DNA from: Amycolatopsis sp. 2-15
GTDB lineage: Bacteria; Actinomycetota; Actinomycetes; Mycobacteriales; Pseudonocardiaceae
Length of the DNA stretch: 64,000 bases
NCBI RefSeq assembly: GCF_030285625.1
Contig: NZ_CP127294.1
Coordinates: forward strand, 9,022,001-9,086,000
Direction of reading: 5' to 3'
This document shows positions 52,036 through 54,446 of the stretch, piece after piece. Both the position numbers and the translations under genes were made by a program. Below the pieces are notes generated by a model. The model searched no databases, had not been told where the DNA came from, and saw only the letters and a list, made by a program, of their open reading frames with translations. The stretch's first letter is position 1; the number at the start of each line of letters is the position of its first letter.

Positions 52036-53061
52036 TCAGCCGAAGAAGACTTCGGCCTCTTCGTAACGCTCCAGCGGCACCGTCTTCAGTTCGGCCGTCG
52101 CCTCCGACAGCTTCACGCGCACGATGTCGGTGCCCTTGAGCGCCACCATCACGCCGAAGTCGCCGTCGGCCACCGCGTCCACGGCGTGCAGGCCGAAGCG
52201 GGTGGCGAGCACGCGGTCGTAGGCGGTCGGGGTGCCGCCGCGCTGCACGTGGCCGAGGACGACCGCGCGCGACTCCTTGCCGGTTCGGTGCGCGATCTCG
52301 TCGGCCAGCCAGGTGCCGATGCCGCCGAGGCGGACGTGCCCGAAGGCGTCCTTGTCCCCGGCCACCAGCTTCTCCTCGCCGCCTTCGGGCAGCGCGCCTT
52401 CGGCGACGACGATGATCGGCGCGTACTCGTTCTCGAAGCGGCGCTCGACCCACTCCACGACCTGGTCCACGGAGAAGTGGCGCTCCGGCACCAGGATCAC
52501 GCTCGCGCCGCCGGCCAGGCCGGAGTGCAGGGCGATCCAGCCGGCGTGGCGGCCCATGACCTCCACGACCAGCGCGCGGTGGTGCGACTCGGCCGTGGTG
52601 TGCAGCCGGTCGATCGCCTCGGTTGCGATGGAGACGGCGGTGTCGAAGCCGAACGTGTAGTCGGTGGCGCTCAGGTCGTTGTCGATCGTCTTGGGCACGC
52701 CGACGACGCCGACGCCGTCGTCGGTGAGGCGCTTCGCGACACCGAGGGTGTCCTCGCCGCCGATCGCGATCAGCGCGTCGATCTCCTGCTCGGCGAGCAC
52801 GGCCTTGATCTTCTCGACGCCGCCCTCGACCATGTACGGGTTGGTCCGCGACGAGCGCAGGATCGTGCCGCCGCGCGTGAGGATGTCCTCGACGTCGCGC
52901 AGGCCGAGCGGCTTGCTCTCGCCCGTGAGCGGTCCCTGCCACCCGTTGCGGAAGCCGGTGAACTCCCAGCCGTGCACCTCGATGCCCTTGCGGACCACCG
53001 CGCGGATCACCGCGTTCAGGCCCGGGCAGTCACCGCCACCCGTCAGCACACCGACACGCAT
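52036..53061 (-). CDS. pfkA: 6-phosphofructokinase, predicted pyrophosphate-dependent
   Basis: A 341-residue group III phosphofructokinase phosphorylating fructose 6-phosphate. LTGGGDCPGLNAVIRAVVRK is the phosphate loop. GGEDT places Asp at residue 104 and PKTIDND places Lys at 124. In this family Gly104 goes with ATP use and Asp104 plus Lys124 with pyrophosphate, as described for the Amycolatopsis methanolica enzyme; the motif FDTAVSIATEAIDRLHTTAE and MGRHAGWIALHSGLAGGASV are general. It is therefore predicted to be PPi-dependent and reversible. It is a single gene with a terminator hairpin, divergent from the DAHP synthase transcript. ATP dependence can be excluded only by assay. Confidence 0.93.
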   Translation of the reverse strand: MRVGVLTGGGDCPGLNAVIRAVVRKGIEVHGWEFTGFRNGWQGPLTGESKPLGLRDVEDILTRGGTILRSSRTNPYMVEGGVEKIKAVLAEQEIDALIAIGGEDTLGVAKRLTDDGVGVVGVPKTIDNDLSATDYTFGFDTAVSIATEAIDRLHTTAESHHRALVVEVMGRHAGWIALHSGLAGGASVILVPERHFSVDQVVEWVERRFENEYAPIIVVAEGALPEGGEEKLVAGDKDAFGHVRLGGIGTWLADEIAHRTGKESRAVVLGHVQRGGTPTAYDRVLATRFGLHAVDAVADGDFGVMVALKGTDIVRVKLSEATAELKTVPLERYEEAEVFFG

Positions 53062-53208
53062 CTCTTGCCTCCGTCTGTTCTCATGTGGAGATCGCAGTCA
53101 CATTTCGCCGCCAGAGTAGCGGCAATCGTCTGGATCGGTGCAGGGCGTACCACCTGGCGAATCGGTCCTCGCGCCCCGGCGGCGGCCGCGTGTGCTAACT
53201 TCATCGGC

Positions 53209-53274
53209 GTGCAGCGCTATTTCTGGTTTACGAAGCCGGCCCCGGGTGGGCGCGGCGGCGTGAACCTGCGCTGA
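53209..53274 (+). CDS. Leader peptide of the DAHP synthase gene (putative attenuator)
   Basis: A 21-codon open frame from GTG 53209 to TGA 53274, 80 nt before the DAHP synthase start. Codons 4-7 encode Tyr-Phe-Trp-Phe, exactly the three aromatic amino acids made by the pathway. TAACTT at 53196-53201 would act as a -10 and put the transcript start on or next to the GTG, so the leader would be translated from the 5' end. A perfect hairpin follows at 53284-53310. Ribosome stalling at the aromatic codons would then decide whether the hairpin forms. Leader translation is inferred. Confidence 0.72.
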   Translation: MQRYFWFTKPAPGGRGGVNLR

Positions 53275-53283
53275 GCCCCCACC

Positions 53284-53310
53284 CCGAGCCGGATTCGAAA
53301 ACCGGCTCGG
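53284..53310 (+). terminator. Attenuator-like hairpin in the DAHP synthase leader
   Basis: CCGAGCCGG and CCGGCTCGG form a perfect 9-bp stem with a 9-nt A-rich loop, 9 nt past the leader peptide stop. An alternative pairing between GGGTGGG (53244-53250, inside the leader frame) and CCCACCC (53278-53284) abuts the left arm and could act as the competing structure. Confidence 0.65.
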
Positions 53311-53354
53311 CGAGTTCCCGCGGGTCGGTGTCCACCAGGAAGGAACCACCCGCC

Positions 53355-54446
53355 GTGACCACCCCGCAGCTGACCGCCGGGCCCGCCGACGCGAGCACCC
53401 TCGACAACCAGCGCACCACGTCGATCAGCCCGCTGATCTCGCCCGCCTTACTGCGCGAAGACCATCCCGTGGACGCTGCCGTGGCGAAGATCGTGCACGC
53501 CGGCCGCACCGAGACCGTCGACATCCTCGACGGCCGCGACGACCGCCTCGCCGTGGTCGTGGGCCCGTGCTCGGTCCACGACCCCGAAGCCGCGATCGAG
53601 TACGCCCACAAGCTGGCCGCCAAGGCCGAAGAACTGCGCGGCGACCTGCACATCGTGATGCGCGTGTACTTCGAGAAGCCGCGCACCACGCTGGGCTGGA
53701 AGGGCCTGATCAACGACCCCGACCTCGACGGCACCTTCGCTGTGAACAAGGGTCTGCGCCTGGCCCGCAAGCTGCTGCTCGACGTGTCGGCGCTCGGCCT
53801 TCCGGTGGGTTGTGAGTTCCTGGACCCGATCACGCCGCAGTTCATCGCCGACATCGTCACGTGGGGCTCCATCGGCGCGCGCACGGCCGCGAGCCAGGTG
53901 CACCGCCAGATGTGCAGCGCGCTGTCGATGCCGGTGGGCATCAAGAACTCGGTGGAGGGCGACATCCAGGTGGCGGTCGACGCCACGCGCGCGGCCGCCG
54001 CGTCGCACGTGTTCCCGGGCATCAACGTCGACGGCCTCGCGGCCCTCCTGACCACCTCCGGCAACCCCGACTGCCACGTGATCCTGCGCGGCAGCTCGCA
54101 GGGCCCCAACTACGACGCCGCTTCGGTCACCGAGACCCTCGGCCGCCTCGCCAAGGCGGGCCTGTCGGAACGCGTGATCATCGACGCGAGCCATGGCAAC
54201 AGCAACAAGGACCACGTCCGTTCGCGTGAGGTGGTGCTGGAGCTGGCCTCGCGGATCGCCGCGGGTGAGCGCGGGATCGTCGGGCTGATGATGGAGAGCA
54301 ACCTGGTTGCGGGCACCCAGAAACTGGTGCTGGGCCACGCCTCCGAGCTCACCTACGGCCAGTCGATCACCGACGCGTGCCTGGACTGGGACACGACGGC
54401 GGATCTGCTGGACACGCTGGCTGGCGCGGTGCGGACGCGGCGCTGA
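53355..54446 (+). CDS. aroG: 3-deoxy-7-phosphoheptulonate (DAHP) synthase, class I
   Basis: A 363-residue enzyme of the AroF/AroG/AroH type joining phosphoenolpyruvate and erythrose 4-phosphate, the first step of the shikimate pathway. VVVGPCSVHDPEAAIEYAHK (metal cysteine), MRVYFEKPRTTLGWKGLIND, GARTAASQVHRQMCSALSMP and VIIDASHGNSNKD are diagnostic. Feedback inhibition by aromatic amino acids is typical of class I enzymes. GTG 53355 is used because AGGAAGGA lies 9 nt upstream; an earlier GTG (53328) would put that site inside the gene. The transcript starts with an aromatic-rich leader peptide and hairpin, so attenuation is likely. The exact isozyme letter is uncertain. Confidence 0.94.
   Translation: MTTPQLTAGPADASTLDNQRTTSISPLISPALLREDHPVDAAVAKIVHAGRTETVDILDGRDDRLAVVVGPCSVHDPEAAIEYAHKLAAKAEELRGDLHIVMRVYFEKPRTTLGWKGLINDPDLDGTFAVNKGLRLARKLLLDVSALGLPVGCEFLDPITPQFIADIVTWGSIGARTAASQVHRQMCSALSMPVGIKNSVEGDIQVAVDATRAAAASHVFPGINVDGLAALLTTSGNPDCHVILRGSSQGPNYDAASVTETLGRLAKAGLSERVIIDASHGNSNKDHVRSREVVLELASRIAAGERGIVGLMMESNLVAGTQKLVLGHASELTYGQSITDACLDWDTTADLLDTLAGAVRTRR

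Follow-up and report, generated by a model that had tools for sequence, protein, structure and literature searches.

An aromatic leader peptide and alternative RNA helices ahead of the DAHP synthase gene aroF in Amycolatopsis: a probable ribosome-mediated attenuator

The aroF locus and its leader frame

We analyzed a stretch of 64,000 nucleotides from Amycolatopsis sp. 2-15, referred to here as the window, which is part of a 10.05 Mb genome on a single contig. It contains aroF, which encodes a class I DAHP synthase. Aromatic amino acid synthesis is gated by this enzyme, and bacteria of this kind draw on aromatic precursors for their antibiotics. The genome had one match only to this aroF, and the closest named homologue, in a search that may omit very close records, was that of Amycolatopsis sp. 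CA-126428 (84% identical). A phosphofructokinase gene (52036-53061) lies on the opposite strand and is divergent from aroF. Between the two, at 53130-53144, is a box, CTGGATCGGTGCAGG, resembling TTGATCGGTGCAGG; similar boxes recur by eye between the phosphofructokinase and aroF genes of many relatives, and may perhaps belong to the phosphofructokinase promoter or serve as an operator. No Rfam 15 covariance model matched the window at its gathering score. Three matches below threshold fell at 53100-53500, and a mir-3718 match, with a score of 28.4 far below the cut-off of 78, was taken as chance. The features ahead of and including aroF are as follows.

53196..53201, + strand: -10-like box TAACTT of a putative leader promoter, based on TAnnnT spacing in 128 leaders
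53209..53274, + strand: leader peptide frame of 21 codons with a GTG start, MQRYFWFTKPAPGGRGGVNLR, kept in 70/70 same-genus loci examined
53218..53229, + strand: putative control codons TAT TTC TGG TTT (Tyr-Phe-Trp-Phe), based on codon conservation in 59 genus leaders
53337..53344, + strand: aroF Shine-Dalgarno sequence, AGGAAGGA, identified from the sequence
53355..54446, + strand: aroF, class I DAHP synthase, 363 aa, GTG start at 53355 (TIGR00034, 477 bits against a cut-off of 173)

A first-pass annotation had reported a 21-codon frame, with Tyr-Phe-Trp-Phe at codons 4-7, ending 80 nt before aroF, and all of these elements were found where it had placed them: the stop codon TGA occupies 53272-53274, and 80 nt separate it from the aroF GTG. 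Runs of four Tyr, Phe or Trp codons occur at only 2 places among the 127,996 six-frame codons of the window. The comparison with relatives that the annotation had called for bore out the aromatic frame in every one of the same-genus loci.

The choice of codons was also conserved. In 59 genus leaders of 66 nt, the four control codons were TAT in 59, TTC in 54, TGG in 59 and TTT in 58. By comparison, TAT accounted for 0/311 Tyr codons and TTT for 1/379 Phe codons in 71 aroF genes. In 18 long GC-rich frames of the window the counts were 5/174 for TAT and 8/309 for TTT, figures lowered by the selection of these frames at GC3 > 0.85. According to a known idea, rare control codons raise the sensitivity of a leader to uncharged tRNA. 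Across a wider set of 128 unique leaders, TAT stood two codons ahead of Trp in 119 and TTT directly after Trp in 124; the search pattern, which also bears on the TGG and TTT counts of the 59 genus leaders, required TGGTT[CT] and G[AC]GCCGG and so fixed in advance the hairpin arm, the Trp codon and all but the final base of the last Phe codon. The same-genus loci, the named relatives and the family-search loci gave looks wider than this pattern. Seven of 22 codons (TAT, TGG, GCC, GGT, GGG, CGC and TGA) were invariant in the 59 genus leaders, and purely synonymous change was confined to a few sequences and to codons 3, 7 and 8. Judged by these codons, the constraint on the leader is on RNA as well as on peptide. 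At the end of the leader, GCGCTGA (53268-53274 in the window) was invariant in 40/40 aligned sequences and had no obvious covarying partner. We dropped a possible pairing between CAGCGC, at the start of the leader, and the terminal GCGCTG, as it showed no covariation by eye.

In the window, the TAACTT box ends 7 nt from the leader GTG. A TAnnnT ended 6 to 8 nt ahead of the leader start codon in 128/128 unique leaders, a count to be read with the fact that the script favored a start codon with a -10-like box where several were possible. When the search window was slid 10, 15, 20 and 25 nt upstream, only 3, 2, 0 and 0 of the 128 had such a box. The Shine-Dalgarno-like words GGAG, GAGG, AGGA and AAGG were absent before the leader start in all 128 leaders. 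A TAnnnT -10 motif and leaderless leader peptides have been described in S. lividans (PMC8079986). This precedent and the conserved spacing therefore argue for a transcript that begins at the leader GTG, and the leader RNA probably starts at or beside GTG 53209 and is leaderless. As read from conservation, codon choice and -10 spacing, the annotation's proposal of a ribosome-mediated attenuator with a probably leaderless leader appears well supported.

Alternative helices between the leader and aroF

Several segments in and downstream of the leader can pair in more than one way. We numbered them 1 to 5 and refer to the helices by the segments that they join; hairpin A is 3:4.

53236..53242, + strand: segment 1, CCGGCCC, whose CCGGC doubles as the outer strand of helix 2:3 (no change among 40 aligned sequences; folds)
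53244..53250, + strand: segment 2, GGGTGGG, pairing with CCCACCC (own-versus-cross 0/20000)
53278..53284, + strand: segment 3a, CCCACCC (own-versus-cross test with GGGTGGG)
53284..53292, + strand: segment 3b, CCGAGCCGG, the left arm of hairpin A, whose GCCGG also pairs with leader CCGGC in 2:3 (folds)
53302..53310, + strand: right arm of hairpin A, CCGGCTCGG, forming 9 bp with CCGAGCCGG
53301..53310, + strand: segment 4, ACCGGCTCGG, the last loop base plus the right arm of hairpin A (loop-part covariation in relatives)
53321..53329, + strand: segment 5, CGGGTCGGT, which can pair with segment 4 and lies within hairpin B (CGG at 53326-53328 invariant in 40/40)
53320..53353, + strand: hairpin B, with stem GCGGGT 53320-53325 / ACCCGC 53348-53353, enclosing the aroF Shine-Dalgarno sequence (covariation; fold)

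The leader RNA (53210-53375) folded 3.2 sd better than its shuffles, with 0/200 as good. The perfect 9-bp hairpin of the first-pass annotation was confirmed at 53284-53292 / 53302-53310. Hairpin A was paired in 99.6% of the cells of the alignment and showed no covariation there, because its arms never vary. The annotation had also pointed to a competing GGGTGGG:CCCACCC pairing, which is indeed present and adjoins the left arm. On its own it cannot compete with hairpin A, since the two share only base 53284, and we rejected it as an antiterminator by itself; CCGGC:GCCGG is needed as well. Helix 2:3 thus consists of CCGGC plus GGGTGGG paired with CCCACCC plus GCCGG. Its GGGTGGG part covaries, with a mean of 5.88 bp for own partners versus 4.86 for crossed ones (0/20000 permutations, n=26).

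No U-tract follows hairpin A in the window, and a terminator search found no terminator there. In 96 of the 102 compact-loop leaders, no T-run within 12 nt past the hairpin was longer than 2, and a terminator scan from the leader to the Shine-Dalgarno sequence matched only 4/102, three of these (L093, L130 and L142) at helix 4:5. That hairpin A acts as an ordinary intrinsic terminator, as the annotation had implied, is therefore doubtful in the window's clade. One hallmark of a classical attenuator, the U-tract intrinsic terminator, was found neither in the window nor in 98/102 compact leaders. The other, a ribosome-governed choice between 2:3 and 3:4, was seen in silico, in the covariation of 2:3 and in a fold scan of 61 sequences.

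The helices of the first-pass annotation were incomplete in that two were missed, a hairpin around the aroF Shine-Dalgarno sequence and a covarying 4:5 helix. The former, hairpin B, holds the Shine-Dalgarno bases largely within its loop; the window has it, as do most of the 58 distinct relatives compared. Its stem covaries (own 5.33 versus cross 4.55, 0/20000, n=58), with variants such as CGTGGGT/ACCCACG and GACGGGT/ACCCGTC, and was only 2-3 bp long in 8/58 (L006, L009, L158, L160, which has a misread start, L172, L173, L179 and L192). Helix 4:5 joins the loop bases before the right arm of hairpin A, together with the arm itself, to a strand just upstream of the Shine-Dalgarno sequence; in the window, ACCGGCTCG can pair over 9 bp with CGGGTCGGT downstream. 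The predicted energies of the two structures in the window are close, at -17.2 kcal/mol for hairpin B and -15.5 kcal/mol for 4:5. Tests of 4:5 and hairpin B were made on the compact leaders (102/128), and the permutation and Fisher tests for 2:3, 4:5 and B ignore kinship among sequences.

In the 40-sequence alignment, in which L160 carries its misread aroF start, 88.3% of the 4:5 cells were paired, versus 78.9% in shuffled alignments and at most 39.3% when the strands were slid. Double-change cells numbered 37 versus 14.5 shuffled, with 0/500 shuffles as good, and the covariation score was 0.286 versus 0.138; none of the 500 shuffles reached the paired-cell, double-change or score value. Two of the five measures failed against shuffles, namely double-change pairs (207/500) and pair types (386/500). 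Examples of matching strands are ACAGACCG/CGGTCTGT, CCCAGCCG/CGGCTGGG, CAAACCG/CGGTTTG and CAAGCCG/CGGCTTG. When strands were paired with their own or with crossed partners, 42/20000 permutations were as good by Watson-Crick pairs, 202 with G-T allowed and 105 in a smaller diverse set. The same comparison counting the whole right arm was not significant (1881/20000), in our view because the constant arm pairs with most partners. Duplex energies gave 0/5000 for 80 compact leaders, 89/5000 when these were collapsed to 37, and 197/5000 for 18 long-loop leaders alone. RNAalifold returned 18 pairs, none of them compensatory, and placed segment 5 with the leader instead of with segment 4.

Leaders with little pairing in the loop part make up for it by carrying the helix on into the right arm (17/17 versus 2/23, p=1.9e-9). 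A 4:5 helix of at least 6 bp was kept in 102/102 compact leaders (9 bp in the window), because a short loop part is compensated by arm pairing. We examined 49 later-fetched loci; the model used to find them derived from the first set, with which they have genera in common. Own partners formed 6.76 bp versus 5.72 for crossed ones (0/20000) in the 42 of the 49 used, those with an arm starting CCG, identical pairs being counted once; at least 5 bp were present in 39. Keeping a single locus for each loop end (n=22) gave 1/20000, and the trade-off between loop and arm appeared again (13/19 versus 4/25, p=6e-4). Twelve long-loop leaders also had the helix, with 8 or 9 bp in L181, L182, L183, L185, L186 and L189 and 6 or 7 in the rest.

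Distribution of the leader among relatives

An aroF match was present in all 80 genus genomes searched. At 70 primary same-genus loci, the leader read Y-[F/Y]-W-F in 68 and Y-Q-W-F and Y-S-W-F in the other two. A search of the family found aroF in 63/100 genomes, and 44 of the 49 loci examined from it (four from the window's own genus) had an aromatic leader, including L194 and L196, whose leaders were found separately. By eye, the aromatic frames of L151 and L161 start further upstream. The remaining five of the 49 were L170 and L178, in which the leader is decayed, and the more distant homologues L197-L199. The later-fetched loci had an aromatic leader in 47/49. Further afield, the leaders of Rhodococcus and Nocardia read YFWF, that of Micromonospora SYRWF or similar, those of Mycobacterium, Williamsia, Dietzia, Tsukamurella, Kribbella and Isoptericola YWRF, and that of one Streptomyces YWRY. 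Residues outside the aromatic run differ between genera and the pairing bases stay.

The leader was absent from some of the loci scanned. Among 27 named loci, none was found in Nocardiopsis ansamitocini or in two uncultured Streptosporangiales-type records, and a second Nocardiopsis gave an implausible frame only. No leader came to light at five loci from a different family within the order (L234-L238), and the distant homologues L197-L199 (56-58% identical) had no aromatic leader. The 58% identical homologues L195, L197 and L198 share a different upstream stretch, like GCCGGCCGGGCC and GTGCCGGCAGAAA, and of these three L195 alone has an aromatic leader. Four loci of one genus, g25 (L170, L178, L275 and L288), had no aromatic leader frame that we could find; they keep hairpin remnants and a segment-5-like strand before aroF, and by their sequence have apparently lost the sensor in nature.

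The genome of the window had one strong match to the leader, the next best having E 0.08. In the family, a covariance model built for the element gave a single match per genome, with E no worse than 1e-5, in 110/249 genomes (23/46 genera), with strict filters that lose weak matches. In all 48 genomes that had a match at this level and were also covered by the aroF search, the element match ended within 84 nt of the aroF match. Five further matches were weaker (E 0.002-0.009).

Scanning for U-tract terminators gave a different picture from that of the compact leaders, with matches in 16/26 long-loop leaders and in 14/24 other actinobacterial relatives, although two of these 14 (L226 and L227) are probably spurious.

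Ribosome position, mode of control and related systems

To model the ribosome, we masked the leader to 12 nt beyond the first A-site base, the assumed leading edge, and folded the remainder for 61 of 100 compact leaders. Soft constraints were used; hard ones left segment 4 unpaired, with P(4:5) 0.00 in every state. For an A site placed two codons ahead of Trp, the median cost of losing 3:4 in the 61 sequences was 1.7 kcal/mol. It was 2.7 for the next codon, 4.2 for the Trp codon itself, 6.9 for the last Phe codon and 7.4 for the stop codon, and for ribosome-free RNA it was 4.3 kcal/mol. Stalling at the control codons would therefore favor 2:3, and stalling at the first codons more than at the last. 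In the window, P(3:4) was 0.09 at Tyr4 and at least 0.98 at all later positions tested (1.00 at the stop), so 3:4 opens only when the A site is at Tyr4 or earlier. Without a ribosome the window RNA is already in the 2:3 fold, with P(3:4) 0.03. Equilibrium folding thus supports the first switch, 2:3 versus 3:4, at the level of the model.

The second switch fared otherwise. Mean Shine-Dalgarno accessibility was unchanged by ribosome position (0.59-0.61 stalled, 0.61 at the stop), and in 100 sequences it rose on stalling in 8 and fell in 15. In the window it moved opposite to expectation, from 0.41 stalled to 0.66 at the stop. When 3:4 was penalized, L145 and L134 formed 2:3 and 4:5 with the Shine-Dalgarno sequence free, and in the window hairpin B persisted and 4:5 lost. 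At equilibrium, the modelled folds do not support the idea that Shine-Dalgarno accessibility simply reports where the ribosome is, and they do not support Shine-Dalgarno release, least of all in the window. The comparison of sequences does back the conserved leader, helices 2:3, 4:5 and B, and the absence of a U-tract in the clade. In light of the fold-scan and accessibility results, we hold three claims with different confidence. It is very likely that the leader is a leader-peptide attenuator of aroF, likely that alternative helices form in it, and translation initiation is the output to which we somewhat incline.

We propose that the attenuator works as follows. The leader RNA would start at or beside the GTG. 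If charged tRNA-Tyr, tRNA-Phe or tRNA-Trp were short, the ribosome would stall on TAT TTC TGG TTT, leaving segment 2 and CCGGC free to pair with segment 3. Formation of 2:3 would preclude hairpin A, and its right arm, segment 4, would pair with segment 5. Helix 4:5 would in turn preclude hairpin B around the Shine-Dalgarno sequence, and aroF would be translated. With the tRNAs charged, the ribosome would reach the stop codon and cover 3a; 3:4 and hairpin B would then form and aroF expression would be low. The output would be translation initiation, rather than or beside premature transcription end. On this scheme aroF is probably raised when Tyr, Phe and Trp run short, perhaps by Shine-Dalgarno release instead of a standard transcription terminator. 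The full relay, from 2:3 through 4:5 to a free Shine-Dalgarno sequence, seems to us just on the probable side. More tentatively, and with rather less conviction, we suggest that the four-step relay is a single Tyr/Phe/Trp sensor acting on DAHP synthase translation initiation, in a family whose leaders may end in a terminator, a Shine-Dalgarno hairpin or both.

A rival account, which we think unlikely, is a transcription attenuator of the aroR or trp type, with hairpin A as a terminator (lacking a U-tract, or helped by Rho), the ribosome choosing between 2:3 and 3:4, and B and 4:5 incidental. It gains from the U-tract terminators that relatives have at the same place, and the effect of the ribosome on 3:4 is the best-supported step of the fold model. 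C. glutamicum aroR is described in this way in a review (PMC11802643), and some S. lividans leaders likewise lack U-tracts (PMC8079986). Against this, the clade shows the short T-runs and scarce terminator matches given above, and the covarying 4:5 helix and hairpin B would be left unexplained.

The covarying loop bases directly adjoin the right arm, and this layout is typical of H-type pseudoknots. The strand could then pair with segment 5 while hairpin A stays closed and so control ribosome access, somewhat as has been suggested for the LEU element of leuA (PMC1262725). We regard this as improbable, since a helix with short loop pairing continues through the arm, which requires A to be open, and since the CGG of segment 5, opposite the CCG of the arm, was invariant in 40/40. 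Yet more improbable is an effect of the peptide as such, either in trans or through ribosome arrest as a sensor of a free aromatic compound. The peptide is near-identical across the genus, but synonymous change is nearly absent too, and non-aromatic residues vary from genus to genus with the pairing bases unchanged, which looks like constraint on RNA.

The aroR leader of C. glutamicum, for which the original paper is said to be Neshat 2014, is the closest precedent for the proposed attenuator; we take its transcript to be leaderless and its aroF enzyme to be presumably class I. A further precedent is reportedly Canestrari 2020, on leaderless poly-Cys short ORFs before mycobacterial cys operons. 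Like the window, in which an aromatic-codon leader stands immediately ahead of a gene for class I DAHP synthase, C. glutamicum aroF (cg1129) is described as preceded by an aromatic leader peptide and governed by ribosome-mediated attenuation (PMC11802643, PMC4046766). Unlike the window leader, aroR has the motif Phe-Tyr-Phe, without Trp, is described as transcription attenuation, and Phe limitation, not Tyr limitation, is said to raise aroF transcription (PMC11802643, PMC4046766). The first-pass idea of one sensor for three aromatic amino acids accordingly stands in part. The codons are present; the modelled effect is graded, falling from its maximum at Tyr to a weak one at the last Phe, and the review of aroR describes a response to Phe and not Tyr availability.

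The kind of leader is already known from aroR, which reduces the novelty that the annotation had seen. Among titles and abstracts, with subscription journals mostly outside the search, we found no aromatic leader for Amycolatopsis or its family and no Shine-Dalgarno-controlling leader for DAHP synthase. A table for S. lividans gives eight leader peptides, none for DAHP synthase (PMC8079986). A 2005 survey of Actinobacteria, as far as its treatment of Phe and Tyr operons goes, reports no conserved RNA structure there (PMC1262725), a stated gap that the aroF leader would fill. By their descriptions, the mycobacterial cys genes resemble the window in having leaderless short ORFs, proposed as attenuators; these are rich in Cys and sense cysteine instead (PMC4633059). 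A 2026 paper calls the M. smegmatis poly-Cys case translation attenuation (PMC13236596), and the 2005 survey describes no conserved terminator hairpin at mycobacterial cys leaders (PMC1262725). The LEU element of actinobacterial leuA is similar in its leader peptide, alternative structures and involvement of the Shine-Dalgarno box, and differs in that its codon run itself pairs with that box, with a pseudoknot proposed (PMC1262725); such pairing is absent from the minimum-energy fold of the window leader. The trp attenuators of Corynebacterium and Streptomyces share the contest of antiterminator and terminator hairpin and the control codons, and unlike the aroF leader of the window they end in poly-U terminators (PMC1262725, PMC8079986).

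If the proposal is true, the leader would explain how the DAHP synthase gate is set in many Pseudonocardiaceae and would offer a handle for strain improvement in harmless producers. It would also provide a range of natural variants along which one attenuator has shifted its output between terminator and Shine-Dalgarno control, a single leader family in which transcription and translation attenuation turn into each other.

Some of the relatives deserve mention in their own right. In L010, L020, L217, L224, L225 and L231 (Mycobacterium, Williamsia and related), a YWRF leader and a U-tract terminator precede a class I DAHP synthase gene, and by eye GGCTCCGGG(TG) pairs over 9-11 bp with (CA)CCCGGAGCC. 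In L181 and L183 the hairpin A loop contains a U-tract terminator and the 4:5 helix is present as well, and both outputs may therefore coexist.
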